DNA of 64,000 nt from Cloacibacterium caeni (lineage in GTDB: Bacteria > Bacteroidota > Bacteroidia > Flavobacteriales > Weeksellaceae). The first letter of the stretch is position 1. Each line of letters starts with the position of its first letter. Location: positions 558,001-622,000 of the forward strand of contig NZ_OU015319.1 in assembly GCF_907163125.1 (NCBI RefSeq). The letters are read 5' to 3'. Below the pieces are notes generated by a model that searched no databases, was not told the DNA's origin, and saw only the letters and a list, made by a program, of their open reading frames with translations. Below are positions 27,661-45,881 of this stretch, piece by piece. The translations under genes were made by a program, and so were the position numbers.

Positions 27661-30600
27661 ATGAAAAGAACAGATATTAAAACCATTTTAGTAATAGGAA
27701 GCGGCCCAATTATCATCGGGCAAGCTGCAGAATTTGACTATGCAGGAACTCAGGCTTGCCTTGCATTAAAAGAAGAAGGGTACAGAGTAATCCTCATCAA
27801 TTCTAATCCTGCTACCATCATGACCGATGTAGAAATTGCAGACAAAGTATATATAGAGCCAATTTCTCTTCCATTTGTAAGTCATATCATCAGAAAAGAA
27901 CGTCCAGATGCGCTTTTGCCAACTTTGGGTGGACAAACTGGATTGAACATGGCAGTAGAATTACAGAATTCTGGAATTTTAGAAGAATGTGGAGTAGAAG
28001 TTTTAGGAACCAAACTTTCTGCGATTAATAGAGCAGAAGACAGAGATTTGTTCCGTGAATTAATGAGAGAATTAAACGAGCCGGTTCCAGATTCTGATAT
28101 TGTAAATACAGTAGAAGGTGCATTAGCTTTTGCAGAAAAAATTGGTTATCCAGTAATTGTTCGTCCTGCTTTTACCATGGGTGGAACAGGTGGTGGAATC
28201 GCTCATGATGAATTGCAACTGACAGAAATTGCAGAACTTGGACTGAAATATTCTCCAGTGACTCAATGTTTAATTGAAAAATCAATTGCTGGGTTTAAAG
28301 AAATAGAATACGAAGTAATGCGCGACAAAAACGATAATGCTATCGTAGTTTGTAATATGGAAAACATAGATCCAGTAGGTGTTCATACTGGAGATTCTAT
28401 TGTAGTAGCGCCTTCGCAAACGCTTTCTGATAGAGAATATCAGATGCTCAGAAATGCTTCACTCAAAATTATTAGAGCACTAGGAATAGAAGGAGGCTGT
28501 AACGTTCAATTGGCTTTAGACCCTCATTCTTTCAACTATTATATCATCGAAGTAAATCCTAGAGTTTCTAGAAGTTCGGCTTTAGCAAGTAAAGCAACAG
28601 GTTATCCAATTGCGAAATTAGCCGCTAAAATTGCAGTGGGACTTACTTTAGACGAAATGCTTAATCCGGTTACAGGAAAAACATACGCATGTTTCGAGCC
28701 TGCTCTAGATTATGTAGTGACAAAAATTCCTAGATTCCCATTTGATAAATTCGAAACGGCTGACAGAAGACTTTCTACGCAGATGAAAGCAACGGGTGAA
28801 GTAATGGCGATTGGTAGAAGTTTTGAAGAATCATTAATGAAAGCGATTCGTTCTTTAGAAACGGGATTGCAACATTTAGGATTAAAAACCAAACCTGCAC
28901 TTGCCTTAACAGATGAAGATATCGAACGCAGAATTAGAGTGTGTGATGACGAAAGATTATTCATCATCGGCGAAGCTTTAAGAAGAGGTTATGATTGGGA
29001 AACCATTGTAGAATGGAGTAAAATAGATAAATTCTTCGTTTGGAAATTCAAAAAACTCATTGATTTTGAAAAAACCATTGCGGAAAATAAATTCAACAAA
29101 GAAATATTACTGGAAGCGAAAAGATTAGGCTTCTCAGACATTAATATCGCACATCTTTGGGAAACAGACCACAGAGAAATCTTCAAGTTCAGAAAAGAAA
29201 ACGGAGTAATGCCAGTTTACAAAATGGTAGATACTTGCGCCGCAGAATTTGAATCTGCTACTCCTTATTTCTACGGAACGTATGAAGAAGAAAACGAGAG
29301 CATTCCTTCTGATAAAGAGAAAATCATCGTTTTAGGTTCTGGTCCTATCAGAATTGGTCAAGGGGTAGAATTTGATTACGCTACCGTTCACTCAGTTTGG
29401 GCAATCAAACAAATGGGTTACGAAGCAATTATCATCAATAATAACCCAGAAACGGTTTCTACGGATTTCTCGATTTCGGATAAGCTATATTTCGAGCCTT
29501 TAACAGAGGAAGATGTAATGAACATCATAGAACTCGAAAAACCAAAAGGAGTGATTGTACAGTTTGGTGGACAAACTGCAATCAACCTTGCAGATAAATT
29601 AGCAGCTCATGGTGTAGAAATTCTGGGGACTTCTCTAGAAGATTTAGACAGAGCCGAAAACAGAGATAAATTCGAACATGCACTGCAAGAATTAGGCATT
29701 CCACAACCATTGGGTAAAACGTGTTTCTCTAAAGAAGAAGCAATTAAAATTGCCAATGAAATTGGATTCCCAGTATTGGTGAGACCAAGTTACGTTCTGG
29801 GAGGAAGAGCAATGGAAATCGTATACAACGATGCAGAACTAGACCATTACATGGAACATGCGGTAGATGCAAGTCCAGAACACCCTGTTTTAGTAGACCG
29901 TTACCTTACCGGAAAAGAAGTAGAAGTAGATGCGATTTGCGATGGCGAAACTACAGTCATTCCAGGAATTATGGAACACATCGAAAGAGCGGGAGTTCAC
30001 TCAGGAGATTCTATTGCGGTATATCCTCCACAAACGCTTACTCCAGACCAGATTGCAACACTAGAAGATTATACCAAACGTTTAGCAAAAGGGTTGAAAG
30101 TAGTAGGTTTAATGAATATTCAGTATGTAATTTCTGATGGAAATGTCTATGTGATTGAGGTAAATCCGCGTTCTTCTAGAACCGTTCCTTTCTTGTCAAA
30201 AATCACAGAAGTTCCGATGGCGAATTTAGCGACCAAAGCAATTCTCGGAGCAAATCTGAAAGATTTAGGCTATAAAGATGGATTGGTTCCAAATAAAGAA
30301 GGAATTTTTGTAAAAGTACCAGTATTCTCGTTCAGTAAATTAACAAGAGTAGATGTAACTTTAGGTCCAGAAATGAAATCTACGGGAGAAGTAATGGGCA
30401 AAGATTCTACGCTAGAAAAAGCCTTGTACAAAGGTTTAATCGGTGCAGGTAGAAAAGTGCCTTTGCATGGTTCTATCTTATTCACCATAGATGATGTAAA
30501 TAAGCCAGAAGCCGCAAAATTAGCAAAAAGATTCTACGATATAGGTTTCAAAATTTGGGCAACCAGAGGAACTTCTAGATATTTTAACGAACTCAATATC

Positions 30601-30840
30601 CCAACCAAAATTGGATATAAAATAGAAGAAGAAACAGAGAACTTAATCAGTTTAATCCAGAAAGGAAAAGTACAATATGTAGTGAATACTACTACGAAAG
30701 GAAAACAATCGATGAATGACGGGTTCTTAATCCGTAGAACTTCGGTAGAAAATGGCGTTCCTTGTCTTACCAGTATGGATACCGTAGAAGCAATGCTCAA
30801 AGTAATCGAAAGCATGACTTTCAAAATGGAAAAAATGTAA
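27661..30840 (+). CDS. carB: Carbamoyl-phosphate synthase large subunit
   Basis: At 1059 residues this is a full-length CarB made of two homologous ATP-grasp halves. The first half starts [23 protein letters not shown] and the second [22 protein letters not shown]; each includes a metal-binding IIEVNPR / VIEVNPR segment. The C-terminal MGS-like allosteric domain ([17 protein letters not shown] and on to the end) is where UMP and IMP bind in well-studied members. It makes carbamoyl phosphate for pyrB and for arginine synthesis. It ends the operon, with a terminator 60 bases downstream. Confidence 0.97.
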
Positions 30841-30899
30841 ATCTGCTTTGTCAAAGTTTTTGCGAAGCAAAGAAATCTTTGACAAAGTTTTTAATAGAT

Positions 30900-30934
30900 A
30901 ACCTCTAAGATTTTATTTCTTAGAGGTTTTTTTT
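30900..30934 (+). terminator. Terminator after carB
   Basis: Stem AACCTCTAAGA/TCTTAGAGGTT is followed by a T-run. A longer-range inverted repeat CTTTGTCAAAG/CTTTGACAAAG lies just before it (30845-30890). Confidence 0.85.
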
Positions 30935-30941
30935 ATATTTG
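30934..30941 (+). promoter_or_regulatory. -7 element for the WYL gene
   Basis: TATATTTG, a perfect TAnnTTTG match, lies 18 bases before the WYL gene ATG and abuts the carB terminator. No clear -33 is present. Confidence 0.55.
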
Positions 30942-30959
30942 AAATAGAAAAATAACTAA

Positions 30960-31865
30960 ATGAATAGAAAGTTTTTAAGAATGGTTTTTTTAGTTAGAAC
31001 TGTTTTGCAATACAATGGTAAATTTAATCGTGAAGATATTATTGATGAGATATTAAAGAGGTTTAAAGCCTATGAAGATATTGAAATACTTAGAATGGAT
31101 GAATATCCTATTTCAACTTTTGATAAGGATAAGAAAGCAATTAAAGACGCTTGGAAAATTGATTTAGAATGTAAAAATAATTTGTATTATATAAATACAG
31201 ATTTTGAAAGTGTGTTTCAAAACGATATACTTAATTCATTGGTTTTTCTTTCATCAATTAATACAGATATGTTGCTTCCTAGTTATGTAATTACTGAGAC
31301 TAGAAAAAATACAGGTATGGAATATTTTCATACTATTTCATCTGCTATAGAAAAAAAACTTTGTCTCAAAATTTCTTATTTTGATTATGTAACAGAAAAT
31401 GAAAATGAAAAATTAATAAATCCATATCGTTTGAAGCAAAAAGATTTTAAATGGTATGTTTTGGCTAAAGATATAAATGATGGCGCAATTTCTTTTAAAA
31501 GTTATGCACTAGAAAGAATTAGAACAATTGATATTTTGGGAAAGTTTAAATCAGATTTAAGTATAGATTTTGAAACACCCTACAAAGATTCAATTGGTAT
31601 GTTTACTAATGAATTTCCTACAAAGGTTGTGGTAGAATACGATTATAGAGATGGTAACTATTTGAAAGCTAATCCTATTCATCATTCCCAAAAAATTCTA
31701 TCACAAAAAGAGAACCGAATTACTTTTGAGTTTTTTATAAAACCAAATGAAGATTTTATAATGGAATTAATGAAACGTTCTTGGTCTTTAAAAGTGATAG
31801 AACCTATTTTTCTAAAACAGAAAATTATGAATTATTGGAAATTGGCTTTGGAGAGAAATGAATGA
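30960..31865 (+). CDS. WYL-domain transcriptional regulator
   Basis: This 301-residue protein has an N-terminal winged-helix-like region (RMVFLVRTVLQYNGKFNREDIIDEI) and a WYL domain at about 125-200: AIEKKLCLKISYFDY, INPYRLKQKDFKWYVLAKD, FKSYALERI. A C-terminal WCX-like extension follows (VVVEYDYRDGNYLKANPIHHSQ). WYL regulators often control defence and DNA-repair genes and sense nucleic-acid ligands. The gene is tail-to-tail with the DUF3883 gene (2 bases apart), so it is likely the regulator of that three-gene operon. Confidence 0.85.
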   Translation: MNRKFLRMVFLVRTVLQYNGKFNREDIIDEILKRFKAYEDIEILRMDEYPISTFDKDKKAIKDAWKIDLECKNNLYYINTDFESVFQNDILNSLVFLSSINTDMLLPSYVITETRKNTGMEYFHTISSAIEKKLCLKISYFDYVTENENEKLINPYRLKQKDFKWYVLAKDINDGAISFKSYALERIRTIDILGKFKSDLSIDFETPYKDSIGMFTNEFPTKVVVEYDYRDGNYLKANPIHHSQKILSQKENRITFEFFIKPNEDFIMELMKRSWSLKVIEPIFLKQKIMNYWKLALERNE

Positions 31866-31867
31866 AT

Positions 31868-32554
31868 CTATTTTTTATTTGTCAGTTTTAAGGATTTTAT
31901 AATTTTATAAGATATTTTATCTTCTTTGTCATTTTCATCAAAAAACTCATTGTTTTCAAATTTTAATATTTTGATATGTCTATTTTTAGCGCTAGAATTA
32001 CAATTTGAAACAATACAAATTCTATAATTTTCTTGATTTTCTTGTAATTTATTATATTCATTTTCGCTTAAATTTATAGAATAAAATTTTCCATTAAGTC
32101 CTTTAACCTCAAGTAATAATTTTATGTTACCAATTGTTGTTTCTAAATCCCAACCACAGTTTTTTGATTCTACACTCTCTACTTTGTAGCCTTTTTTTTC
32201 ATAAAAAGCTTTAATATCATCTATTGCTCGTTTTTCACTCCTTTTCGCTTTTTTTTCGTTGTTTTTTCTATCAAATACATTATAATTGTTTGGATCTAGA
32301 TTTTTAAATTCAACAAATCTTTTCAAATAGGTTTTTTCATTTTTTTCAAACCTAGTATTTTTATCCATCGAATTTAAGAATGTATCGATATCTGAAGTAC
32401 TTTGTTCAAAAAAAGAACTAAGTTTATTTCTTTCTATATAACGATTAATTCCCTTAAGATAGTTATTTGCAAAAATCAAAGTATCTTTGATAGTGGAGTC
32501 GGATTTACTTGGATAAATATTTTTTAACCAATCTTCGAATTGTTTCTCACTCAT
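31868..32554 (-). CDS. DUF3883-type restriction-nuclease-like protein
   Basis: This 228-residue protein has a helical N-terminal half (residues 1-105, SEKQFEDWLKNIYPSK onward). The C-terminal DUF3883/Mrr-like PD-(D/E)xK fold includes IDDIKAFYEKKGYKVESVES, GWDLET, KLLLEVKG and INLSENEYNKL. The D...ExK triad (GWDLE and EVKG) of restriction-type endonucleases is present. It is the last gene of a three-gene minus-strand operon behind an AlbA_2 protein. It is the likely nuclease of the presumed defence set; target and trigger are unknown. Confidence 0.78.
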   Translation of the reverse strand: MSEKQFEDWLKNIYPSKSDSTIKDTLIFANNYLKGINRYIERNKLSSFFEQSTSDIDTFLNSMDKNTRFEKNEKTYLKRFVEFKNLDPNNYNVFDRKNNEKKAKRSEKRAIDDIKAFYEKKGYKVESVESKNCGWDLETTIGNIKLLLEVKGLNGKFYSINLSENEYNKLQENQENYRICIVSNCNSSAKNRHIKILKFENNEFFDENDKEDKISYKIIKSLKLTNKK

Positions 32555-32578
32555 AGTATTATTTTTTATTAAACAAAT

Positions 32579-33442
32579 TTAGTGAAAATTTCTATCAAAA
32601 TCAATTACATTTCCTAAGTTGTTTCGGTAAAAAAACACGCCGTTATAAAAAATATTTTGTTCTGATTTTGGGATAGCTATACTTATAAAATTACAGCCAA
32701 GAATGTTTTCTGCTTTTATTATAATTTTTTTTGCAAAATCTTTATAAATACAGGAAATCAGCCTATTAATAATATACTCAAAAGATATAATGTTTTCATT
32801 TGCAGAATAATTATCAAAGCTAGATTTTTGCCCAATAATAATTGTTCCACCATCAGAATTTGCAAAAGCACAGATGCTTTCTAATAACAATTCAATGTCA
32901 GATTTTCTATTTTTTATTTTAAATTCTATGAATTCTATTTCCTTAGGAGATTTCCCCAAAATTTTATTTTTTTTAGAAACTTCTTCCAATCTTCTACCCA
33001 TAAAAAGAATGTAAGAATGTTTATTTTCAAAATTAATTTTCAATAGATCAAAGTACTTTTTTTCTATTTTTTTTCCCTGTTCTATGTGTCTTTTCAGAAT
33101 TTCATTTAAAGAAAAATGAATATTAATAAGATAAATTTGGTTTTCTTTATCAGCCAAGTCATATTTTTTTACATCTTCATTAATTCTAATATAGATAGAG
33201 ATGCCTTTTAAATAATTCTCGGGATTTTTATAGATAATTTTGCTTGTTTTTTCATCTCGCCATATTTCTCCTTCTCGTTCTAAAACATTTATTGCTGCTT
33301 CGTAATATTCAAAGGCTTTTTCTCTTGCAAAAAGAATGTCTTGATTTGTAAATACTTGTTGGTGTATTCTCCTTAAACCAGAATTATTGGTGATAAATTG
33401 AGTTTTTACAACAAAGCTAATAAGAGGTAATTTAGTTTCCAT
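32579..33442 (-). CDS. AlbA_2 (Schlafen-type) domain protein
   Basis: This 287-residue protein has an AlbA_2/Schlafen putative ATP-binding domain at about 165-265: EFIEFKIKNRKSDIELLLESICAFANSDGGTIIIG, whose EFK...AFANSDGG block is diagnostic, and a later FISIAIPKS strand. The N-terminal 160 residues are not a family I know. They include FAREKAFEYYEAAINVLERE, which resembles a segment of the next upstream protein. The gene is 3 bases after the upstream gene and 24 bases before the DUF3883 gene. AlbA_2 domains occur in several anti-phage proteins. Confidence 0.75.
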   Translation of the reverse strand: METKLPLISFVVKTQFITNNSGLRRIHQQVFTNQDILFAREKAFEYYEAAINVLEREGEIWRDEKTSKIIYKNPENYLKGISIYIRINEDVKKYDLADKENQIYLINIHFSLNEILKRHIEQGKKIEKKYFDLLKINFENKHSYILFMGRRLEEVSKKNKILGKSPKEIEFIEFKIKNRKSDIELLLESICAFANSDGGTIIIGQKSSFDNYSANENIISFEYIINRLISCIYKDFAKKIIIKAENILGCNFISIAIPKSEQNIFYNGVFFYRNNLGNVIDFDRNFH

Positions 33443-33445
33443 AGT

Positions 33446-34423
33446 TTAGATAATATTGATAATTTCTTGTAATTCAGGATTTATATATTTTATTTCGAAA
33501 ATTTCTGTAAGTGTTGTTTGTTCATCTACTTCTGTTAGTCCTTTATTGTTTCGGATGTATAATTTTCCTTGTTTCGAATAGATTAGTTCTTCAGCATAAT
33601 AATTTTCATAGCAAAAAACTTCATAATTTATTGCATCAATTTCTAAAGAATCATAATGCTTTAATTTATTCTCAGAATCATAAGCTTTTTCTAAAATTTT
33701 TAAAACTCTAATTTTAAACCCCGAATTTTTTTTAGGAATGAATAGATATTTATTTAAATAAAAAGAATTAAGAAAGGAAAGATATATTTTTTCTATATCA
33801 TTAAAATTTTCTGTTAACAAAATCTCTTTTTGGTATAAATTTTCTTTATCATAAAAAAGTTGTTTTAATTCTCTTTTCTTAATCTGGTTAAAAAAGTTGT
33901 TTTTAGAAATGACAGGACGTAATTCTAAATTATTGTAATCTAAAAAATCTTTTAAAATTTTTATTTCTAAATTAATTGATTGATAATCTGTATTTTTGAA
34001 ATCTAAAATGCATTCTTTTATATTATATTTTGAGCTAGATAACATTATCCTCAGAAAACCATAATTTTCAAGTATTTCTTGACCATTATTTCTAATTCTA
34101 TAAGCATCCCACATAATATAATCATTGTAAGAATATTGAATAGAGTACTCTGAAATTTTTTCAAAATCTAAAATTTGTGTATTTTCTAAACAAGGTAAAT
34201 CTTCTTTCTTTTCAATTTTTTTTAATTCCAAAGAATTATTATCTGTGAAAAATTTAATAGTGATAATTTCTCTTTCAATAGCTTTTTTAATTATATCTGA
34301 TAAATAGATTATAGCTTTTTCCCTTGCAATCCTGGGATTTGAATCTTTAAATTCTCTTGTTTCATAATTTAATAATAAATTAAGTATTGCTGGTATTTCT
34401 ACTGTGTAAATATAGTTATCCAT
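33446..34423 (-). CDS. Unknown protein, first gene of the AlbA_2/DUF3883 operon
   Basis: I do not recognise this 325-residue protein. Residues near 30-60 (NPRIAREKAIIYLSDIIKKAIERE) resemble a stretch of the AlbA_2 protein, so the two share an N-terminal module. The rest is charged and mixed alpha/beta, with no signal peptide or membrane segment. I chose ATG 34423; a TTG six codons upstream falls inside the promoter-like CTTTG. It is only 3 bases before the AlbA_2 gene, so the two are translationally linked. It could be a sensor or adaptor subunit. Confidence 0.65.
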   Translation of the reverse strand: MDNYIYTVEIPAILNLLLNYETREFKDSNPRIAREKAIIYLSDIIKKAIEREIITIKFFTDNNSLELKKIEKKEDLPCLENTQILDFEKISEYSIQYSYNDYIMWDAYRIRNNGQEILENYGFLRIMLSSSKYNIKECILDFKNTDYQSINLEIKILKDFLDYNNLELRPVISKNNFFNQIKKRELKQLFYDKENLYQKEILLTENFNDIEKIYLSFLNSFYLNKYLFIPKKNSGFKIRVLKILEKAYDSENKLKHYDSLEIDAINYEVFCYENYYAEELIYSKQGKLYIRNNKGLTEVDEQTTLTEIFEIKYINPELQEIINII

Positions 34424-34455
34424 CTCTGTAATTTTTTGCAAAGAAAATTAATTTA

Positions 34456-34476
34456 ACTACCAAAAACAGGTAGTTT
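34456..34476. promoter_or_regulatory. Inverted repeat in the promoter region of the three-gene operon
   Basis: AACTACC and GGTAGTT are separated by 7 bases, 33 bases before the first ATG of the minus-strand operon. It overlaps the -33/-7 zone, where TTTTTGG and TTTCTTTG can be seen on the minus strand. It could be an operator for the WYL protein. Confidence 0.5.
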
Positions 34477-34545
34477 ACAATTTGCACACAAAAAAACTTA
34501 AAGGTTTTTTGTTTGAAAAATATTATCTTTATCAAAAATTTAAAA

Positions 34546-35172
34546 ATGATATTTATGTTAAAAAGAATTTCACTTTTCGCATTTCTAAATGTAGCAATGC
34601 TTGGTTTTTCTCAGCAATATAACATTCCGGCTGTAAGCCCAAGACAAACCGTAGAACAGCAATTTTCGGTGACCAAAATTTCTATAGAATATGGTAGACC
34701 TGCGGTAAAAGGAAGAAAAGTCTTCGGAGAACTGGTTCCTTTCGGTCAAGTTTGGAGAGCTGGAGCGAATGAAGCTACCAAAATTACTTTTGGTCAAGAA
34801 GTGCTTTTTGGCGGTCAAAAAGTGAAAAAAGGAACCTACGCTTTGTATGTGATTCCTCAAGAAAAAGAATGGAAAATCATTTTAAACAGAGGGGTTAACA
34901 ATTGGGGAGCTTATACCTATGATGCAAAAGAAGATGTAGCAACCACTACCGTTCCTGTAAAAATGATGAACGAAAAAATGGAGCGTTTTACCATAAATTT
35001 CGAAGATATTACAGACGAAAAACTCAATTTAGTTTTCGAGTGGGACAAAACCAGAGCAGATGTTCCGGTAGAAATTCTAAATGTAGAAGAAACACTACAG
35101 ATTATTGATAATTTAAAGGCGATTAAAAAAATAGAAAGCGATATTAAAAAGAAAAACGAACCGAAAAAGTAA
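34546..35172 (+). CDS. DUF2911 domain protein, secreted
   Basis: This protein of about 208 residues has a signal peptide (LKRISLFAFLNVAMLGFSQ). The DUF2911 domain follows: VSPRQTVEQQFSVTKISIEYGRPAVKGRKVFGELVPFGQVWRAGANEATKI and FGGQKVKKGTYALYVIPQ. The family is widespread in Bacteroidetes and has no known function; it is predicted periplasmic or extracytoplasmic. ATGs at 34546 and 34555 are both plausible starts; a TTG at 34513 is too far upstream. It resumes ordinary chromosome sequence after the WYL island. Confidence 0.85.
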   Translation: MIFMLKRISLFAFLNVAMLGFSQQYNIPAVSPRQTVEQQFSVTKISIEYGRPAVKGRKVFGELVPFGQVWRAGANEATKITFGQEVLFGGQKVKKGTYALYVIPQEKEWKIILNRGVNNWGAYTYDAKEDVATTTVPVKMMNEKMERFTINFEDITDEKLNLVFEWDKTRADVPVEILNVEETLQIIDNLKAIKKIESDIKKKNEPKK

Positions 35173-35204
35173 TTTTTGGGCGCGTCCTTTTTTTGCCAAC
35201 GCTA

Positions 35205-35240
35205 AAAACGCTTTTAGAAATTTTTCTAAAAGCGTTTTTT
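35205..35240 (+). terminator. Terminator after the DUF2911 gene
   Basis: A 16-bp stem (arms 35205-35220 and 35223-35238, containing ACGCTTTTAGAAA and its complement) ends in TTTTTT. Confidence 0.85.
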
Positions 35241-35729
35241 CATCCGCCGAAAAAAGGTCGGTCTTCGTGTAGTCGCTTTTTTAATTTTTTAGAAAAAAAT
35301 TAAAAAGAGCTCCAACAATACACTTCGCCCTCGCGCAAAAACAACAGAATTTTAAATAATTGTCACTCTGAGCGGTAGTCGAAGAGTCCCATCCAACATC
35401 TCACATCTAAAATCTAAAATCAAAAATACTTGTTCATTTTTCGGTTGTATCATCCATTCCTAAAAATTTACATTTGCATTACTTTGTCAAAGATATTACT
35501 ATTTTCCAATATTTCATTTGATTGCTTCAAAGTGCTTGTTTCAGTGGGTTTTACAATTTTAAGATAAGAAAACTAACGAATCCGAAAGCATCCAAATTAA
35601 GAGTTTGTTGAACTGCTTGTTGTACTTTTGTATCAGGTTGCTTCCCTTTGCGAAACCTTCTATTTAAAGGGTTTCTTTGCTTTGCACTGTTTTGCAAAGG
35701 GAATATAAAACCTAAAAATATACAACATT
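35241..35729. other. Intergenic junction before the integrase; candidate element end
   Basis: No gene is seen in these 489 bases. They contain the repeat related to 1685-1765 (35266-35320), the dispersed block TCACTCTGAGCGGTAGTCGAA (35361-35381), an ATCT-rich stretch (35395-35420), and nested inverted repeats just before the integrase (CCCTTTGC at 35644-35651, GCAAAGGG at 35694-35701, GAAACC/GGGTTTC between them). The inverted repeats are candidates for integrase arm sites or an attachment site, but I could not find a matching direct repeat at the right side. Confidence 0.4.
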
Positions 35730-36947
35730 ATGGCATCAGTAAAATTAGTTCTGAGAACAGCACAAGAATCCCAAACAGGACATTGTCCACTTTACATTAG
35801 ACTTATAAAAGACCGAAAAGCAAAATTTCTCACGACAGGTCAGAAATTAAAGCCTTCAGAATGGGACGAAGCAAAGCAAAAAGTAAAGAAAAACCATCCG
35901 AATAGTGCAAGATTAAATGCCTATTTGTCTCAAGTTATTGCCGATGCGGAAGGTCAGGTCGCTGATGTTTCAAGGAAAAATGAGTCAGTTTCTGCCAAGA
36001 AGCTAAAAGAAGCAATCAAAGGGAAAGAATCTTCATTGTTTTTTGATTATGCCTTTAAAAGATTAGAAAAAATCAATGGTTCCATTTCCATTTTAACACA
36101 ACGCAAATATCAGGCTCACCTAGAGAAGTTTAAAAAATATGTAGGTGAAAAAGAATTCTATTTTGAAGACCTTACTACCGTCTTGCTGAACGACTACATT
36201 ACCTATTGCTATTCTACTTTAAAAAACAAAAACAATACGGTACAAACCAATATAAGAAGCCTGATGAAATTCTACAATGATGCCATTGCAGAAGACATGG
36301 TCCCTCTAAATCTGTATCCTTTCAATAAAATCAAGACCAAAAAAGATTCTGCGAAAATAAAATTTCTCCAAAAAGAAGAAATTGAACTGCTGAAAAATGC
36401 AGAATTAGAAGAAGGAAGTTTAATGTCAAAATTCCGAGATATGTTTGTTTTTTGCATTTATGCAGGTGGACTTAGGATGGGCGATGTGATTTCTTTGCAA
36501 TGGAAGCACATTAATTTTGAAGATTCCAAATTATCAAAAGTTATCCGAAAAACAGGGAACTTGCATAGCTTCAAACTAGTCCAACCAGCTTTAGAAGTTC
36601 TCAAAAAACACAAAAATGAAAACAGCACCGATGAAAGCTTCGTTTTTTCTTTAGTAAAAAATGAAGAGAAATTTTTGAAAAATGAACATTATGCCATTTC
36701 AGAAATTGAAAGAATTTCTCGTAATATCAATAAATCACTATCATACATTTCTCAAAAAATTGATTTAAACAAAGGACTTTCCTTCCATATGAGCAGACAT
36801 ACATTTGCTACAAATGCATTGAATAATGGAATGCGTATTGAACACGTTTCAAAAGTCATGGATCATTCGAGCATTCGTGTAACCGAGATTTATGCAAAAG
36901 TAATCAATACAGAACTTGATGCTTCGATGGACAAGTTTGTGTATTAA
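35730..36947 (+). CDS. Tyrosine recombinase (integrase) of a Bacteroidetes mobile element
   Basis: This 405-residue integrase has an N-terminal arm-binding region (KLVLRTAQESQTGHCPLYIRL), a SAM-like core-binding domain (FFDYAFKRLEKINGS to LMKFYNDAIAED) and a catalytic domain. Catalytic residues visible: Arg in GGLRMGDVISL, Lys in RKTGN, His-x-x-Arg in HMSRHTFAT, the second His in VMDHSSI, and Tyr in EIYAKVIN. It would integrate and excise the element that follows. Position and direction mark the left end of the element. Confidence 0.93.
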   Translation: MASVKLVLRTAQESQTGHCPLYIRLIKDRKAKFLTTGQKLKPSEWDEAKQKVKKNHPNSARLNAYLSQVIADAEGQVADVSRKNESVSAKKLKEAIKGKESSLFFDYAFKRLEKINGSISILTQRKYQAHLEKFKKYVGEKEFYFEDLTTVLLNDYITYCYSTLKNKNNTVQTNIRSLMKFYNDAIAEDMVPLNLYPFNKIKTKKDSAKIKFLQKEEIELLKNAELEEGSLMSKFRDMFVFCIYAGGLRMGDVISLQWKHINFEDSKLSKVIRKTGNLHSFKLVQPALEVLKKHKNENSTDESFVFSLVKNEEKFLKNEHYAISEIERISRNINKSLSYISQKIDLNKGLSFHMSRHTFATNALNNGMRIEHVSKVMDHSSIRVTEIYAKVINTELDASMDKFVY

Positions 36948-36969
36948 TCTCTAGAATATAAATAAAGCA

Positions 36970-37013
36970 AAAAAGAAGAGTGTTATTCTTATGGAAAACA
37001 TTCTTCTTTTTTC
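36970..37013 (+). terminator. Terminator after the integrase gene
   Basis: AAAAAAGAAGAGTGTT pairs imperfectly with AACATTCTTCTTTTTT over a 12-base loop. Confidence 0.65.
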
Positions 37014-37086
37014 AATGTCTTATTATGAGTTATAGTCAAAAAAATACTTAGAGCACAAAATTTGAGATGATAAAAGAAAACTTATT

Positions 37087-37995
37087 ATGATTTCACATTA
37101 TCCACTTTTGGAAACGGCTCCTTTCATGGAGTTTACGTCTGTAAAAGTTACAGATGCTTTTAACCATTTATTTGACATAGAAAAAAACACAGAAGAAAAT
37201 TTACAGTCTTATTGCCAATCACTTATCAATAAAATTTTTCAATTGCACTATTCTCAAATCCAAAATTTTATTAACCATCATTTTAGTATTGCCAAAAATC
37301 CAATTGACTGGCTGAACACATTTGAAAAACTCATTGTTGTTAATGAAAAACTCTTTCAAAAAGGAAGTAATGAGAGCAGACATATAAAGTTTCAAACCTG
37401 TATCGAATTGAAAAGGCTCAATTTAATTTGTGATGAAACACAAGAAAGTCCTACGAGACTAAATAAAAAGCAAATTAACGCAGAAAATGAAGAAAGATAC
37501 TTCAGTTTTAAAGAAGTGAAAGAGGAACTTGACCGAATAATTATTTTTGAAGAGAAAATAGTTTATCTAACCAATCAAAAATTTGATTATCAACAATCTG
37601 TCATTGATTTTGTAAACAAAAATCTTCCCCCATTTGATGAACAATGCACTAATGAGATTGAACGTCTCATTGAAGTAAGAAAATTGGAAGAACAACTTAC
37701 AAAGAAGAAGACTAATTATATACAGAGACCCACACTAGAAAACAAAATTAAAATCAACAGCAACCTCAATCAGATTGTGGATGTATTTTTTCAACTGAAC
37801 CGTGAACTATTTATTGAAGGCAAACCATATTTGGATGCCAATACAAATGATTTTGTGGCATTAATTTGCAATAATTTCGTAGATAAAGATGGTCACGAAA
37901 TCAGCACAGCAACTGTTGAAACGATTTTACGTCCCTCTAAATACGATAAAAGACCCAAATCTCATAAACGTATTGATGTTAATAAATTAATCTAA
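37087..37995 (+). CDS. Mobile-element protein, RteC-like
   Basis: This 302-residue soluble protein is rich in Lys, Glu and Asn, with long helices. The C-terminal stretch (LICNNFVDKDGHEISTATVETILRPSKYDKRPK) resembles the winged-helix end of RteC-type regulators of Bacteroides conjugative transposons. The rest is not recognised. It follows the integrase on the same strand and is bracketed by terminators, so it is transcribed alone. A role in controlling excision is plausible but not shown by motif. Confidence 0.5.
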   Translation: MISHYPLLETAPFMEFTSVKVTDAFNHLFDIEKNTEENLQSYCQSLINKIFQLHYSQIQNFINHHFSIAKNPIDWLNTFEKLIVVNEKLFQKGSNESRHIKFQTCIELKRLNLICDETQESPTRLNKKQINAENEERYFSFKEVKEELDRIIIFEEKIVYLTNQKFDYQQSVIDFVNKNLPPFDEQCTNEIERLIEVRKLEEQLTKKKTNYIQRPTLENKIKINSNLNQIVDVFFQLNRELFIEGKPYLDANTNDFVALICNNFVDKDGHEISTATVETILRPSKYDKRPKSHKRIDVNKLI

Positions 37996-38002
37996 AAAAA
38001 AC

Positions 38003-38022
38003 AAGTCTCGGAGAGACTTTTT
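38003..38022 (+). terminator. Terminator after the RteC-like gene
   Basis: Stem AAGTCTC/GAGACTT is followed by TTT. A second short pair (GGGACTTCGGGACTTTTTTT) follows at 38024-38043. Confidence 0.65.
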
Positions 38023-38087
38023 CGGGACTTCGGGACTTTTTTTGTTTGCTCAATTTTGCTCCATAATCATTAAAAACATAAGAAAAA

Positions 38088-38372
38088 ATGGAGGCAATTA
38101 TTCTCTCAAAAGAGCAATTCGATGCTTTAATGTCAAAAATCGATGACATACATCACAAAATCAATTCAAAAAACCTACCAAAGCAGGAAGTATTTTTAGA
38201 TAACGAAGAATTTATCAAAATGCTAAAAATCTCACGAAGAACTGCACAAACCTGGCGTGATGAAGGCAAAATATCTTTTTCACAAGTTGGAAACAAAATC
38301 TATTACAAACTTTCTGATGTAGAAAAAACGATGGATGAATACTATAATAAATCCTTTTCTAAAAAATGGTAA
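38088..38372 (+). CDS. Helix-turn-helix protein, excisionase-like
   Basis: This 94-residue protein has an N-terminal helix (LSKEQFDALMSKIDDIHHKI) and a MerR/excisionase-type winged HTH: EFIKMLKISRRTAQTWRDEGKISFSQVGNKIYYKLSDVEKTM. Such proteins follow the integrase in many Bacteroidetes elements and act as Xis-like directionality factors or repressors. It starts the gene run that includes DUF3853 and the replication genes. Confidence 0.8.
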   Translation: MEAIILSKEQFDALMSKIDDIHHKINSKNLPKQEVFLDNEEFIKMLKISRRTAQTWRDEGKISFSQVGNKIYYKLSDVEKTMDEYYNKSFSKKW

Positions 38373-38408
38373 TTAAACAATTGTATTTTCCATCAAATCA
38401 TCAATTCT

Positions 38409-38660
38409 ATGAAAAACATAAATCCACAAACCCCCATTTGGAAGCTGACGGTTGAAGAATTTTTGGAAATTTCCCAAAAAATTAACTTGGAAAGCAAATA
38501 TGAATACGGACTGAAAGGTTTGGCAAAAATTCTCGGTTGTTCTGTTTCTAAAGCCTCTGAAATAAAATCTTCGAGAATATTAGATGAAGCCATTATTCAA
38601 AATGGGAATATCATTATCATTGATAAAGAAAAAGCGTTGCAACTTTTTGCAAAAAAATAA
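38409..38660 (+). CDS. DUF3853 family protein
   Basis: This 83-residue protein is of the DUF3853 type, found in Bacteroidetes integrative elements: PIWKLTVEEFLEISQKI, YGLKGLAKILGCSVSKASEIKSSRILDEAI, IIIIDKEKALQLF. The middle looks like a helix-turn-helix, so it may bind DNA. It is 36 bases after the excisionase-like gene and its stop nearly touches the next start. Confidence 0.78.
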   Translation: MKNINPQTPIWKLTVEEFLEISQKINLESKYEYGLKGLAKILGCSVSKASEIKSSRILDEAIIQNGNIIIIDKEKALQLFAKK

Positions 38661-38661
38661 G

Positions 38662-39405
38662 ATGTACTACCTTGAATTGATAGAGCGGTTTTGGGATTTT
38701 AATAAAACGGCAAAAATTAGTCCTACAGAAATATTATTGTATTTCTATTTGCTGAAAATGGGCTATGAAAATGACCGCTACGATTTCAAAATTTCTGATG
38801 TTGAATTGGGAAGAGAACTGGGATTAACCAGAAAAACGATAAAGTCAACAAAAGAGAAACTCAAAAATTTAGGTTTAATTCAATTTCAATCCAAAAATGG
38901 ACTTCCTTGTCATTACCGATTGCTGTTGAATTATTCCTTTGAAATTGAATCTAAAAAATCAATCAGAAATGAAGAAAGTACAATTGTTGAAAAAGATCAA
39001 AATAGAGAAGTTTTAGAAATATTTGAAAATATTCTATCTGCACAAAATTCAGTTGAGGCAATAAAAGAAATTGAAATTAATAGTGATGTAAAGGCATCTT
39101 CAGAATCATCACAAAAGCAAAAGCTAGAATTAGAACAACAAAACCTTAAAAATTCCAAAATTCCTTCTTTGGATGAGTTTATGGAATATGCAAAATCATT
39201 GGAAGGCTATGAACTGGAATTAGAATTGAGTATCAGCGAAAAATATGAAGTTTGGATAAATAATGATTGGAAAAACACCTCCAATCGTCCAATTAGCAAT
39301 TGGAAATCTACACTAAAAAGCACTTTGCCTTATCTGAGAAATAAAAGTGAGGAAAATTCCCTTTCGTTGCAAGACATTCCAAATATAAAACGTCCTGAAT
39401 CTTAA
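38662..39405 (+). CDS. Winged-helix protein of the mobile element
   Basis: This 247-residue protein has an N-terminal winged-helix domain (PTEILLYFYLLKMGYEN, ISDVELGRELGLTRKTIKSTKEKLKNLGLI). A long charged linker (140-190) and a C-terminal part with YEVWINNDWKNTSNRPISNWKSTLKSTLPYL follow, a pattern like DnaD/replication-loader proteins of plasmids and phages. ATG 38662 is one base after the DUF3853 stop; upstream starts in the same frame lie inside that gene. Likely role: a replication accessory or regulator, inferred from its place before the Rep gene. Confidence 0.65.
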   Translation: MYYLELIERFWDFNKTAKISPTEILLYFYLLKMGYENDRYDFKISDVELGRELGLTRKTIKSTKEKLKNLGLIQFQSKNGLPCHYRLLLNYSFEIESKKSIRNEESTIVEKDQNREVLEIFENILSAQNSVEAIKEIEINSDVKASSESSQKQKLELEQQNLKNSKIPSLDEFMEYAKSLEGYELELELSISEKYEVWINNDWKNTSNRPISNWKSTLKSTLPYLRNKSEENSLSLQDIPNIKRPES

Positions 39406-39449
39406 GGTAAAATCATCAAAATTAAATTTATTTAAAAACGAAATAAACT

Positions 39450-40547
39450 ATGACTGTTTCGGAAAAAGATTTACGGCTTATCCGTAAAGGTTTTGAAAAT
39501 AAAAACGAAAGAAATATTGACAAAATCCGCATCGGAAACCGTTTTGTGGACGATTTTATTTTTGATGATTCCGAAGCCGCAGATATTCCTATTAATGCTC
39601 TTCGTGTGATTTTTAATATTATTTCCATTATCAGTAATGAACAGTTCCGACCTCAAGACCGACCGAAACAACTTTCACTTTTTGACGAAGAATTTGAAAC
39701 CGAAAATAACATTTTTGCTTCCATCAAAATTAAAAACAGTAAAATTTCTCCAAGTGGATCTACCAAGCAAGTAATTGATGCTTATGAGTTTCTTGCTAAA
39801 TTTAAGATGGGTTGGTACAAATCGGTTAATTCAAAGGGCAAAGAAATTAAAACTTTCGGTGGACTCATTTCTACACCTAGTTATGACAAAAGAGGCTACA
39901 CCACATTTTTAGTCAGTAGTTATTGGCTCAAGAAATTATTGGTAATTCCCGAATACAACTATATTCTGTATAATTTGGTGTACAATGTGCGAAACAACAA
40001 ACACATTATTTTTGCGATTTGGCTTTCAAAATTACCTGAAAATGGAACGGTTCTAAAGCTTTCTACACTGAATAAAAAGTTTGGATTGAACTATAAAACA
40101 ACCAAGGATTTTTGTTTTAAATTTCTAAAACCAGCAAAAATCAGTTTGGATAAATTCAACATATTGTCTTTCAATTACAGATACAAAGCGGATCAAATAT
40201 ATATCATTCCAATTTTAACTAAAGTCATTTCTGATAAAGTAATGACCGAAAATAATCAGAAATCATTAAAAATAAATGAAAGATTAGGGTATTTTAAGAA
40301 AAGATACGGACTAAAAGAGCATGAAATGATTCAGTTTTTTCATCAATACAGAAACATTTCGCAAACAAGGGAATTGATAGAAAAATCCTTTAAAGAATAT
40401 GTGCGAAACTGTAGATTGAAAAAAATTAAATCAACGAACTACCAAGGTCAACAATTTCTGAATGAGATTCAAGAACATATGAAACAGATTTATAGAAGTA
40501 CAAAAATGGGAGAACTATTACCAAATGGATATCCAATCATTGTGTGA
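39450..40547 (+). CDS. Probable replication initiator protein
   Basis: This 365-residue protein looks like the replication initiators carried by Bacteroidetes plasmids and integrative elements. The N-terminal part KIRIGNRFVDDFIFDD, the middle KFKMGWYKSVNSKGKEIKTFGGLISTPSYDKRGYTTFLV, and a winged-helix stretch LYNLVYNVRNNKHIIFAIWLSKL then LSTLNKKFGLNYKTTKDFCFKF are visible. The strongest support is the location: its stop codon is directly followed by seven iterons and two DnaA boxes. Initiators of this sort bind such iterons. Confidence 0.72.
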   Translation: MTVSEKDLRLIRKGFENKNERNIDKIRIGNRFVDDFIFDDSEAADIPINALRVIFNIISIISNEQFRPQDRPKQLSLFDEEFETENNIFASIKIKNSKISPSGSTKQVIDAYEFLAKFKMGWYKSVNSKGKEIKTFGGLISTPSYDKRGYTTFLVSSYWLKKLLVIPEYNYILYNLVYNVRNNKHIIFAIWLSKLPENGTVLKLSTLNKKFGLNYKTTKDFCFKFLKPAKISLDKFNILSFNYRYKADQIYIIPILTKVISDKVMTENNQKSLKINERLGYFKKRYGLKEHEMIQFFHQYRNISQTRELIEKSFKEYVRNCRLKKIKSTNYQGQQFLNEIQEHMKQIYRSTKMGELLPNGYPIIV

Positions 40548-40833
40548 ATTCGGAATTCCGCTCATTCGCAATTCGGAATTGCGGTAGTAAAAGTTAATGA
40601 AATGTTAAAATTTTATTCTTTCTCATGATGTATTCGGATTTCCGCTCATTCGGATATTTTAGAAAACGACAAAATCGTTGATAACCCTATGGTTTTGTGG
40701 ATAAAGCGAAAAATTGAAGAGAAATATAAAATCCAATTCGGAATTCCGCTCATTCCAAAATAGGAGTTTTTTCGGAATTCCACTCATCTGAAATTCGGAT
40801 TTCCGCTCATTTCCAATTCGGAATTGCACTCAC
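40548..40833. other. Iteron array, candidate replication origin
   Basis: Seven copies of an 18-bp iteron, consensus ATTCGGAATTCCGCTCAT, begin at 40548, 40571 (degenerate end), 40632, 40736, 40770, 40793 and 40816. Perfect DnaA boxes (TGTGGATAA, reverse of TTATCCACA) lie at 40696-40704 and 40933-40941. The stretch 40850-40967 is very AT-rich and could be the unwinding region. The array fills the gap between the Rep gene and the toprim gene. Confidence 0.82.
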
Positions 40834-40967
40834 CGAAAAAGTGGTTCAAACCCTTTTCTATAAGTCGATACAGTGCTTCATTAAAAGTATTATAAAAGTA
40901 ATTAAAAAGTCTTTTTTTATTTAAAAGGAAAATGTGGATAAAAAATTTGCTTTAAAAAGAAAAAAAA

Positions 40968-41822
40968 ATGAATTGTGAAGAAGTAAAAGAAAAAATAAAT
41001 ATAAGAACGGTTTTAGAATCATTCAACCTTTCCCCTGTGAAAGAAAACAGAAAAACGGCTTTTTATTTTGCGCTCGACAGAGAAGAAAAAATTCCGAGTT
41101 TATCCGTTGATTTCGTCAAAAATAAAGCGTTTGATTTTGGAACGGGAAAAAGTTATGATGTGATTTCGATTGTTCAGCAAATGAATCAATGTTCTGTTTC
41201 TGAAGCATTGAAATATTTAGAAAAATTTGTGTTTTCCGTTCAAAAAAAGTTTCAAAATGAAGAAGCAAAGCTACAAAAAGAGTACAAAATCCTCAACGTT
41301 CGTGAAATTCAGCATCCTGCATTAATTCAATATTTAAAATCTCGAAAAGTATATGAACAAAAAGAGTTGGTGAAAGAAATTGAATACGAGTTGAATGGTA
41401 AAAAGTATTTCGGAATTGGGTTTTTCAATAATTCTGGAGGAGTTGAAATCCGAAATAAATATTCCAAAATATGTTTAGGGAAAAAAGATGTGACATTGAT
41501 AAAAAATGAATTGAATATTTCTAATGAAATTTGCATTTTTGAAGGTTTTTTTGATTATTTGACATATAAGAATTTGGAACAAAAAGAAAATTCTAATTCA
41601 GATTATCTGATTCTAAATTCTACTGCGATGCTTTTTAAAGTTGAGGAATTATTAAGAAAATACCAAAAAATCTCTCTGTTTCTTGATAACGATGATAATG
41701 GAGAGCTTGTAAAGTCAAAAATTCAGAATCAGTATAAGTATAAGAATGTAGAAGATTGTTCCTTAATTTATCAAAAATTTAAGGATTTGAATGAGTGGTT
41801 TTGCTCAAAAGAAGACTTATAA
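40968..41822 (+). CDS. Toprim/CHC2-related DNA primase-like protein
   Basis: This 284-residue protein has an N-terminal part related to the CHC2 domain of primases (IRTVLESFNLSPVKEN, IPSLSVDFVKNKAFDFGTGKSYDVISIVQQM), but the zinc-binding Cys/His set is largely lost. A toprim domain follows at about 175-270: ICIFEGFFDYLTYKN (the Glu) and ISLFLDNDDNGE (the DxD motif). It would act in DNA replication or priming of the element. It begins 26 bases after the second DnaA box. Confidence 0.82.
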   Translation: MNCEEVKEKINIRTVLESFNLSPVKENRKTAFYFALDREEKIPSLSVDFVKNKAFDFGTGKSYDVISIVQQMNQCSVSEALKYLEKFVFSVQKKFQNEEAKLQKEYKILNVREIQHPALIQYLKSRKVYEQKELVKEIEYELNGKKYFGIGFFNNSGGVEIRNKYSKICLGKKDVTLIKNELNISNEICIFEGFFDYLTYKNLEQKENSNSDYLILNSTAMLFKVEELLRKYQKISLFLDNDDNGELVKSKIQNQYKYKNVEDCSLIYQKFKDLNEWFCSKEDL

Positions 41823-42396
41823 GATATCTTTACTCATAAACATTTTAAGACATTAAAAATAATTCAATCAAAGAAAACCCTATAATTTTAATGTTTTTTT
41901 GAGTTTTTCATTATTAAATATAACTGTATAATTACTTCCGACTTTGGTTTTGGCTTTTACGTTTGCAAATGTAGGACATCATCATTCACTCAAAAAAATC
42001 TTTTTGGGTTTCTATAAAAATTCTTTCCACAAGTTCCAATAATTTTTTCAGACACTCCTAAATCCTTCGGACAAAAAGATTTCGAGCCCGATTCAAAACT
42101 TGTAAGTAATTACGGGAACTGAATCGGGTTTTGTGTGCCTGATGCTGTCCTATGATCATCGGCAAAGAAAAAGCCGGAACCTCAGTTGTACAAATCAATT
42201 CAATAGCAGTTGCTCTTTAACATCATTAGAAAAATCAAAAAAAAAACGAAAAACATTGTTTTCCAATAAAATTAAAAGAAAGAAAAATATAAAAAGAAAA
42301 GCCGAGTGTCCTCGATACCAAATCAATTCACTCGAAAATTTCAACCAAATACAGACGAAAAATCAATTAAAAAATTAACAATTAAATCGAAACATT
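41823..42396. other. Non-coding stretch with a long inverted repeat
   Basis: In these 574 bases I see no convincing gene; an 81-codon frame at 42133-42378 is Lys/Arg-rich noise with no homology I can see. The notable item is an inverted repeat CCCGATTCA (42087-42095) / TGAATCGGG (42120-42128), followed by TTTTG. It could be a terminator for the toprim gene or a site such as an origin of transfer. The last 170 bases before ssb are A-rich. Confidence 0.5.
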
Positions 42397-42801
42397 ATGA
42401 ACACAATTATCGGAAGAGTTACCCAAAACGCAAAAATCAACATCTTAAAAAACGACAAAAAAGTCGTGAACTTTTCAGTAGCCATCAATGACAGTTACAA
42501 AACAAAACAAGGCGAACGCAAAGAGCAAACTACCTATTACAATTGCTCTTATTGGATAAATGCCAAAATAGCAGAATATCTTACCAAAGGTACTTTGGTG
42601 GAATTATCAGGCAGGATAAGCAGTAGTGCTTGGATAGGAAAAGATGGAGAAATAAAGTCTGGACTGAACTTCCATACTTCAAACATCAAATTGCACGGTG
42701 GAAAGCAAAAATCTGAATTCAACAAAGAACCGATTGCAAACCCACAAAACAACAATAGCAATCCTTTTTCAGATGAAACTGATGATGATTTACCATTTTA
42801 A
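42397..42801 (+). CDS. ssb: Single-stranded DNA-binding protein
   Basis: This 134-residue SSB has an OB fold over residues 1-105 (MNTIIGRVTQNAKINILKN, VNFSVAIND, YYNCSYWINAKIAEYLTKG, LVELSGRIS). A flexible Asn-rich linker follows, and the acidic tip DDDLPF recruits replication and repair partners. It is an element-borne copy that would support replication or transfer of the element together with Rep and the primase-like protein. Confidence 0.92.
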   Translation: MNTIIGRVTQNAKINILKNDKKVVNFSVAINDSYKTKQGERKEQTTYYNCSYWINAKIAEYLTKGTLVELSGRISSSAWIGKDGEIKSGLNFHTSNIKLHGGKQKSEFNKEPIANPQNNNSNPFSDETDDDLPF

Positions 42802-42819
42802 TTCAATCTTAAAAAAATT

Positions 42820-43065
42820 ATGGAAGCACAATTTAATTTTCAGTTAAGACACCGAAACGATAAAAGAGAATGGGAAGATATTGAGGTGTATTATCAAACC
42901 CATTGCGATAGGACTACTGCAATACGCTATGCAAGAAATCTTTCCAAAATATTCAATTCGGAAATCCGATTGACAGAGGGAAAAGAGCCATTCAAAACAA
43001 GCGGAACATACATTTACGAACAAACAGAACCTTTAAAAATTAGAAATTATGGCAAATTGGTGTAG
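42820..43065 (+). CDS. Small conserved-looking mobile-element protein
   Basis: This 81-residue protein is of unknown function (EAQFNFQLRHRNDKREWEDIEVYYQTHCDRTTAIRYARNLSKIFNSEIRLTEG in three overlapping parts). It has an alpha/beta pattern and no membrane segment. It is 18 bases after ssb and overlaps the start of the next gene by 17 bases, which supports it as a real, translated gene. Confidence 0.6.
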   Translation: MEAQFNFQLRHRNDKREWEDIEVYYQTHCDRTTAIRYARNLSKIFNSEIRLTEGKEPFKTSGTYIYEQTEPLKIRNYGKLV

Positions 43066-43540: not shown

Positions 43541-43571
43541 TAAAAACAGTAAAAATTACAAACTATAAATT

Positions 43572-43775
43572 ATGAAAATTAAAGACTTAAATGGGTGTAC
43601 AATTGAAATTACTAATCTCAATGAAGCAATTCAAATAACTAGAAGATACAAAAGATACGAACACGAAAGCAAAGGTTTTTCAAAATTAGACAAAAAACTC
43701 AATCAATATTGGACGGATTTATATGAAAAACTACTTAAAATAAAATCCCAAAAAAAAGAAAAATCAAAAATTTAA
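43572..43775 (+). CDS. Small basic protein of the PRTRC region
   Basis: This 67-residue protein (start KIKDLNGCTIEITNLNEAI, end KSQKKEKSKI) is predicted helical, with a very basic C-terminus. I recognise no family. It is closely spaced, 4 bases before the PRTRC protein E gene, so it is probably cotranscribed with it. Confidence 0.55.
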   Translation: MKIKDLNGCTIEITNLNEAIQITRRYKRYEHESKGFSKLDKKLNQYWTDLYEKLLKIKSQKKEKSKI

Positions 43776-43779
43776 AATT

Positions 43780-44337: not shown

Positions 44338-44362
44338 ATACCAACTACCAAATACTAAAAAA

Positions 44363-44581: not shown

Positions 44582-44688
44582 ATTTTGGTTGATGGTTAAT
44601 AGTTGTCGGTTGATAGAATTACAAACTAAATACTGACAACCATCAACTGATAACCAAAAAATCATTCATCAATTATCATTCATCATCT

Positions 44689-45873: not shown

Positions 45874-45881
45874 ATAAATCG

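Follow-up and report, generated by a model that had tools for sequence, protein, structure and literature searches.

A four-gene locus in Cloacibacterium caeni

The stretch of 64,000 nucleotides analysed here (the window) covers positions 558001–622000 of the 2.98-Mb single-contig genome of Cloacibacterium caeni (NZ_OU015319.1). It contains a four-gene locus in which an operon of three genes, termed A, B and the third gene, meets the gene of a WYL regulator tail to tail. This report concerns the locus as a module with an exchangeable third gene and a putative role in defence. The four genes are:

30960..31865, plus strand: WYL regulator, 301 amino acids (aa); Pfam WYL 9.2e-11; the most conserved member, with 58–68% identity to its relatives
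31868..32554, minus strand: third, exchangeable gene, here NOV_C/DUF3883, 228 aa; Pfam NOV_C (PF13020) 7.8e-12; D136 and E149-V-K151
32579..33442, minus strand: gene B, 287 aa; SLFN_AlbA_2 at residues 168–276, Pfam 2.6e-8
33446..34423, minus strand: gene A, 325 aa, ATG start at 34423; no Pfam match

All open reading frames (ORFs) are open. A and B are separated by 3 bp, B and the third gene by 24 bp, and the third gene and the WYL gene lie 2 bp apart, stop to stop. The original prediction, made from the sequence alone, had described three tightly packed genes with gaps of 3 and 24 bases and a convergent WYL gene ending 2 bases away, and had recognized an AlbA_2 Schlafen-type protein (B) and a DUF3883 protein with a D...ExK motif. 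The measured gaps and the Pfam matches bear out each of these points. It had also called the product of the first gene an unknown protein. This holds with regard to Pfam, but the N-terminus of A is homologous to that of B. A TTG is present farther upstream of the ATG of A, at 34441.

Neither A nor B of the window has a match in PADLOC 2.0.0 at E ≤ 1, and none of the four window proteins has an NCBIfam match at E ≤ 1. Searches of Pfam, PADLOC and NCBIfam gave no methyltransferase match for any of the four genes. Among the relatives, PADLOC matches are confined to two B proteins (Cas5c, 0.0019; PDC-S09, 0.012). The Rfam search of positions 30000–36000 gave no lead.

Co-inheritance, mobility and exchange of the third gene

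A profile of the A proteins from the window and from a Chryseobacterium oryzae plasmid was searched in 320 genomes of the family (Weeksellaceae). There are 16 matches in 15 genomes, and 12 of these, in 11 genomes, are strong (E ≤ 2.1e-33). The weak matches in G230, G111, G103 and G058 (E from 8.8e-5 to 8.6e-4) were excluded from the member counts; the regions in G230 and G103 contain no such operon on reading, G111 and G058 being left outside that reading. Places recurring under other locus identifiers (e.g. L004–L009 and L035–L039) were counted once. The complete order of A, B, third gene and convergent WYL gene is present at ten of the 12 strong A loci. A reverse search with the WYL protein at E ≤ 1e-60 gave 11 matches in 10 of the 320 genomes; ten of them are the complete loci and the eleventh is a broken copy in G326. 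The WYL genes of all ten complete loci belong to one clade.

Several copies are damaged. In G003, which belongs to the same genus as the window, A is truncated and lies beside ORFs that are transposase-like by eye. In G328, A is whole and B is reduced to its first part; no WYL gene and none of the queried third genes are found within 16 kb. The WYL gene of G326 is split by an ORF (transposase-like by eye) with a second copy nearby, and the third gene is convergent. A scan of genome contigs with the WYL alignment identified six loci, five of them already counted. At the new one, in Chryseobacterium formosus, a third gene and what is left of B (60 residues) lie opposite a frameshifted WYL gene. 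Viral contigs scanned with the WYL, B and A alignments gave no lead, nor did protein-only scans for A in viral and genome contigs.

At higher ranks, three evenly drawn samples of 395 genomes each were searched. A was found in the genome of the window and G328 in the order sample and in the genome of the window alone in the phylum sample; the N-terminal part of B was found in the genome of the window alone in the class sample. These samples contain few known carriers and thus bound abundance only.

The module genes are under purifying selection, with ratios of nonsynonymous to synonymous divergence (dN/dS) of 0.12–0.37 in all 11 gene comparisons of three locus pairs (the third gene was comparable in two pairs). 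The four-gene arrangement goes beyond chance, since it is found again in further genera and on a plasmid, and in sister genomes the same flanks enclose no such genes. These observations support the view that the four genes are a real, mobile and co-inherited unit.

In the window, the island between carB and a DUF2911 gene is delimited as follows:

27661–30840, left flank of the island: carB, named from its ORF and in the original prediction
30919..30932, plus strand: left flanking short repeat CTTAGAGGTTTTTT, within a hairpin that follows carB and resembles its terminator; empty-site joint in L053
34497..34510, plus strand: right flanking short repeat CTTAAAGGTTTTTT, with one change relative to the left copy; the island is the span between the copies
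34513–35172, right flank of the island: DUF2911 gene, Pfam 1.7e-57

Both flanks are located where the original prediction had placed them. The G+C content of the island is 23.7%; the window as a whole has 31.3% and carB 37.6%. In five of the six further members of the genus, the DUF2911 gene comes after carB without an intervening module; the sixth is G003 with its remnant of A. The empty-site joint of G001 is located within CTTAGAGGTTTTTT. The Kaistella copies L027 and L028 also follow carB, and the Chryseobacterium copy L025 adjoins a DUF2911 gene, L026 having the same neighbouring ORF. Three Kaistella copies and the copies of C. oryzae and G216 occupy other places, and that of C. oryzae lies on a 50-kb plasmid, at most 9 kb from ParA and replication genes. 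The carB/DUF2911 spot is either an old home from which the module has been lost many times or a place that it enters preferentially.

Beside the DUF2911 gene, window positions 35730–47500 form an integrated-element-like stretch with a tyrosine recombinase, a Toprim/CHC2 protein, a single-stranded DNA-binding protein (SSB), PRTRC protein E and a Prok-E2 family D protein. By appearance, positions 48474–62477 hold a lanthipeptide-type cluster (C39-peptidase ABC transporter, outer-membrane efflux protein, HlyD protein, AraC/TPR regulator, S9 peptidase and lantibiotic dehydratase N-terminal protein).

The neighbourhoods of the copies, read for defence genes, are mixed. Another WYL gene is present near L029–L031, and L029 is also accompanied by a DUF2779 gene and an N6 methylase gene, the latter some 5 kb away from A and not part of the conserved unit. 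Near L023 there is a PDDEXK_4 protein of the PADLOC class PDC-S26 with its own WYL gene, and a GmrSD gene is found near the C. formosus remnant. Defence neighbours were not seen at the window copy, L025–L028 and the plasmid copy, where most ORFs were not searched against PADLOC.

The third gene belongs to different classes at different loci. The NOV_C gene is present in the window and at two Kaistella loci, whose versions are 53 and 52% identical to that of the window and also contain its motifs GWDLE and LLLEVKG. Three other Kaistella loci encode a 285-aa protein (X29), and two Chryseobacterium genomes a 352-aa protein (X25) with the distant, shorter relatives X3 (209 aa, C. oryzae) and X40 (C. 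formosus). X23 (219 aa) is found in G216 and X70 (249 aa) in G326. The link between X3 and X25 is weak (E 0.009), and X40 connects the two. X25 and X70 have about 116 C-terminal residues in common (30% identity, E 9e-9). The NOV_C, X25/X3, X29 and X23 classes have no blastp match between them at E ≤ 1. A single superfamily for all third genes was considered, as two class pairs scored marginally above the maximum of 30 column shuffles (17.6 versus 16.4 and 17.7 versus 16.7). It was dropped with 200 shuffles, 37, 6, 11, 109, 13 and 43 of which equalled the observed profile scores of the six pairs.

The clearest comparison is that of the C. oryzae plasmid (L003) with G216 (L023). A and B align over 2006 bp at 93.2% DNA identity, from before A to 25 bp past the stop of B (plasmid coordinates). 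On the WYL side, 916 bp align at 91.9%, starting 6 bp inside the WYL stop. Between these blocks the third genes do not align at all. Because the flanking genes are nearly identical and the gene between them is unalignable, the third gene was swapped as a unit. It is thus exchanged while A, B and the WYL gene stay conserved, and the module is modular. The original prediction had taken the AlbA_2 and DUF3883 genes as the core of the system; this fixed pair is ruled out by the varying third gene, the DUF3883 gene being one of several interchangeable ones.

In the trees of A and B, the Kaistella loci with NOV_C and with the 285-aa protein are sisters and the window lies outside (A 100/99, B 93/92), although the window is a long branch, of which the tree tool warns. 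The A tree rejects a single clade of NOV_C carriers (approximately unbiased test, p-AU 0.0015); the B tree gives a borderline result (p-AU 0.051). On either tree the five third-gene labels require four changes, the minimum for five; merging X3 with X25 could give three. Within the Kaistella NOV_C pair, the synonymous divergence (dS) of the third gene is 0.12, compared with 0.30–0.39 in the other three genes, which is a sign of its separate transfer. Between L029 and L031 of Kaistella, the WYL gene has a dS of 0.43 and A, B and the third gene have 0.06–0.10, so recombination breaks occur on the WYL side too. Two versions that differ in the third gene (L028 and L030) are present together in Kaistella sp. 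SH40-3, one after carB and one elsewhere.

Relatives of the third genes also occur on plasmids of other bacteria. On pSRC1 of Selenomonas ruminantium (L048:6713-9592), a WYL gene is convergent with an X25-like gene and a TPR gene, and DUF2779, metallophosphoesterase and AAA genes are nearby; the tail-to-tail layout is alike in this other phylum, and A and B are not annotated. The IncC plasmid pKAZ2 (L071:6001-6714) contains an unannotated 237-aa ORF that is a full-length relative of X70 with C-x2-C, AAHV and LCSDCH motifs, and by eye no A- or B-like neighbour is seen. A 400-aa relative of the X29 class (E 4e-13, single comparison) is encoded on a Treponema saccharophilum plasmid (L050:6965-8167), in a stretch that also carries Imm6- and Imm1-type immunity genes. 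Searches for X29 in phages and for X23 in plasmids gave no lead. The part common to X25 and X70 was considered as a system-specific C-terminal adaptor. This idea is weakened by the stand-alone plasmid relative, which matches X70 over 96% of its length.

The distribution also bears on whether the locus is a toxin–antitoxin or addiction module, in which the third protein would be a toxic nuclease checked by A–B or the WYL protein, its exchange would reflect the diversification of toxins, and the benefit would lie in persistence of the element. A small operon with a regulator, one copy of which is on a 50-kb plasmid, would suit such a role, and the toxic part is often exchanged in addiction modules. 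Here, however, A and B are kept while their partner changes wholly, so that one antitoxin pair would have to act against unrelated toxins. Furthermore, an addiction module should resist loss, whereas the loci in G003, G328, G326 and C. formosus are broken. We consider this explanation unlikely.

The four proteins and the promoter palindrome

B is predicted to have the Schlafen AlbA_2 core fold. Its profile matches the structures of SLFN5/13/14 (best 6.4e-5). The structure models of A and B were each calculated from six sequences. The B model has a predicted local distance difference test score (pLDDT) of 54.3 overall and of about 77 over residues 161–280, and it matches 3lmm (Z 10.7), SLFN14 (Z 8.6) and the tRNase domain of SAMD9 (Z 8.6).

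The catalytic residues of SLFN13 are E205, E210 and D248, as given in an excerpt of PMC5862951. Their positions were transferred to B by residue spacing in the profile alignment with SLFN8/13 and read in six B proteins rather than all ten. At the E205 position these have S/S/N/S/S/S and at the E210 position E/D/E/D/D/D. The D248 position is occupied by S/E/E/P/P/Q, with Asp in none and Glu in two. In these six proteins the aligned SLFN catalytic triad is incomplete, two of its three residues being missing, and an active Schlafen RNase is therefore unlikely.

This weighs on an explanation in which B, or A and B together, would be the effector and cleave tRNA or mRNA upon infection, with the third protein as an accessory. 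The profile and fold matches of B (6.4e-5; 3lmm Z 10.7) speak for it, and Schlafen proteins are said to function in bacterial defence (excerpt of PMC12839542). For PUCH, an excerpt of PMC10567574 describes potential catalytic residues in TOFU-2 and none in TOFU-1. In the module, on the other hand, the equivalent of E205 is Ser or Asn in all six B proteins, that of D248 is never Asp, and A lacks a sequence match to the Schlafen domain. A Schlafen-type RNase system is thus quite improbable.

A is likely a B-like partner. The N-terminal parts of A and B are homologous, with an hhalign score of 42.4 over 40 columns, compared with a maximum of 19.9 in 200 column shuffles and 13.6 for a reversed profile. 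Plain blastp reveals no similarity between A and B. Homology of the C-terminal halves was not found by sequence; the fold alone hints at it. In the AlphaFold2 (AF2) model of A (pLDDT 61.4), residues 190–276 can be aligned to chains of Alba and IF3-C; the best Z of 7.8 is inside the background range of the aligner. With low confidence, the C-terminal part of A may be Alba/IF3-C-like. Among the matches listed, the VIA-align list mixes Alba, IF3-C, SepF, SpoVS and SirA-like chains, and no single family can therefore be named. Foldseek gave no match for A at E ≤ 0.001, there is no sequence match to Alba or Schlafen domains, and the profile of A relatives gave no lead in the PDB. In eight relatives of A, Pfam matches stay below the cut-off: IML1_N in two (best 0.0016), ORF45 in one (0.0055) and Ig_VWDE in one (0.13).

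The third protein of the window is probably a nuclease of the PD-(D/E)XK type, as it has both a NOV_C domain and the D...ExK motif. DUF3883 is termed a novel restriction endonuclease (REase) domain in an excerpt of PMC3710099. In PADLOC, this protein matches the NOV_C-like ends of the TmtA (5.8e-7) and HmaA (2e-5) models only. A Pfam nuclease-type domain is found in the NOV_C class alone, and the nuclease reading of the other classes is based on motifs seen by eye. By eye, X25/X3/X40, X29 and X23 give an HNH-like impression and X70 appears to have an HNH motif. X70 has no Pfam match at E ≤ 0.01 and no PDB match, and the profile of X25/X3/X40 relatives gave no lead in the PDB.

The Pfam WYL match of the regulator is over the cut-off. 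A WCX match is weak (0.0017, 19.1 bits with a cut-off of 23.9), and there is no Pfam helix-turn-helix match at E ≤ 1. Two more WYL-domain regulators are encoded on the chromosome of the window (G000:C1:175204-175950 and 1597551-1598291), distant from the module WYL. Upstream of A, two features were located:

34438..34446, minus strand: -7-like element TTTCTTTGC of the operon promoter, from aligned upstream regions
34456..34474, minus strand: palindrome ACTACC-TGTTTTT-GGTAGT, putative WYL operator; perfect pattern match, overlapping TTTTTG (-33-like)

The -33/-7-like elements are presumably the Bacteroidota promoter form. The pattern ACTRCNNNTTTTTGNNAGT occurs once at each of ten of the 12 A loci, 51 to 63 nt upstream of the ATG, and the distance from TTTTTG to TTTGC (-7-like element) is 24 at all ten. 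The arms of the palindrome co-vary in places (ACTACC/GGTAGT in the window, ACTGCC/GGCAGT in G328). The window has two pattern matches with at most one mismatch, compared with 0.05 expected; the second is at 15780. Upstream regions of nine of the 12 A loci were shuffled, the near-copies L024, L026 and L031 being excluded. The region of G216 has a different, imperfect palindrome that 112 of 2000 shuffles equal.

BrxR and CapW repress phage-defence operons via promoter palindromes (excerpts of PMC9122601 and PMC9122588). The palindrome over the A promoter is likely the operator of the WYL protein, which by this analogy would repress the operon.

A WYL sensor of single-stranded nucleic acid could also control a non-defence stress or DNA-repair module, and the WYL proteins PafBC and DriD are reported to respond to DNA damage. 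The patchy occurrence with empty sites, the copy on a plasmid, the rapid divergence of A and B and the changing third gene are not what a repair pathway would show, and make this a very unlikely explanation.

Interpretation and relation to known systems

The locus is best read as a mobile, regulated nuclease module, and we hold it, with somewhat more confidence than doubt, to be a system against phages or plasmids whose nuclease can be swapped. Defence would be its purpose. This reading fits the constant A–B core, the exchangeable third gene, the WYL protein with its palindrome, the empty sites and carriage on a plasmid. A WYL dimer on the palindrome over the A promoter would keep the operon off, and a signal of infection or nucleic-acid damage may release it, as BrxR/CapW and the palindrome suggest. 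A and B, related proteins of Schlafen/Alba type, would jointly form the constant sensing or nucleic-acid-binding part, presumably as a complex. The third protein would be the cutting part, in the window a PD-(D/E)XK-type NOV_C protein. Its gene may be exchanged between loci as a cassette of one gene's length, with recombination taking place where the ends of B and of the tail-to-tail WYL gene are conserved.

Several observations weigh against the defence reading. Four of 14 loci are broken (the 12 strong A loci plus G326 and C. formosus; the broken ones are G003, G328, G326 and C. formosus). The module is rare, and A is confined to the family of the window in the 395 order and 395 phylum genomes. 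Defence genes lie near some copies only, and relatives of the third genes are also found where A or B is missing. X25/X3/X40, X29, X23 and X70 have no Pfam nuclease-type domain above the cut-off. The A model is weak, with an Alba-like score at background level. In the A–B comparison, an unrelated WYL alignment scored 21.8, above the shuffles and half of 42.4. The palindrome pattern is absent at L003 (C. oryzae) and L023 (G216), and upstream of A in C. oryzae there is no significant palindrome (1807 of 2000 shuffles are as good). The whole chromosome holds the pattern once, as it does a backward-read control. The weight of the palindrome thus lies in its position and conservation rather than its rarity.

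The module resembles several known systems in part. As in BREX and CBASS with BrxR/CapW, a WYL protein stands beside a defence-like operon with a palindrome in its promoter; here, however, the regulator gene is tail to tail with the operon and the putative operator overlaps a -33-like element. The fold of B is shared with Schlafen proteins and PUCH, and two related subunits per operon recall the pairing of Schlafen lobes or subunits. In contrast to these, B appears to lack two of three catalytic residues (six proteins read) and the operon has a separate nuclease-like gene.

Lamassu, CBASS and Avs combine a constant sensor with variable effectors, and Lamassu includes LmuB, an SMC-type gene. 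The constant core with an exchangeable effector gene is alike, but the four proteins of the module have no SMC, cyclase or STAND ATPase match, and no LmuB-like SMC match was found for A, B or the WYL protein. TmtA of Tmt and HmaA of Hma have a NOV_C-like C-terminal region that the window third protein matches; their models are 1176 to 1782 positions long, and the domain alone is in common. The module does not belong to restriction-modification systems, as the conserved unit has no methyltransferase match.

Among the matches listed, literature searches gave no description of this gene combination. No paper was found that unites AlbA_2, WYL and anti-phage, or that joins three of Chryseobacterium, Kaistella, defence system and WYL. 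The original prediction of an undescribed defence system therefore stands in that the combination is absent from PADLOC 2.0.0 (A, B) and from the searched literature; its AlbA_2/DUF3883 pairing is not fixed.

More tentatively, the module may be an immune system of a new type, whose shared sensor or loading platform for unrelated, interchangeable nucleases (PD-(D/E)XK, HNH-type and others) is a catalytically silent Schlafen-like pair and whose exchange site is the slot between the conserved 3' ends of the genes. We regard this as possible, though doubtful.

If the defence reading is true, a small modular defence system would be added for the Weeksellaceae, and the Schlafen fold would be in use without its full catalytic triad. 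The predicted compact operator would give a handle on how a tail-to-tail WYL gene controls its neighbouring operon. L003 and L023, with nearly the same A, B and WYL and different third genes, would be a natural experiment. Their comparison would show whether the third gene determines what is cut or which phages are stopped.

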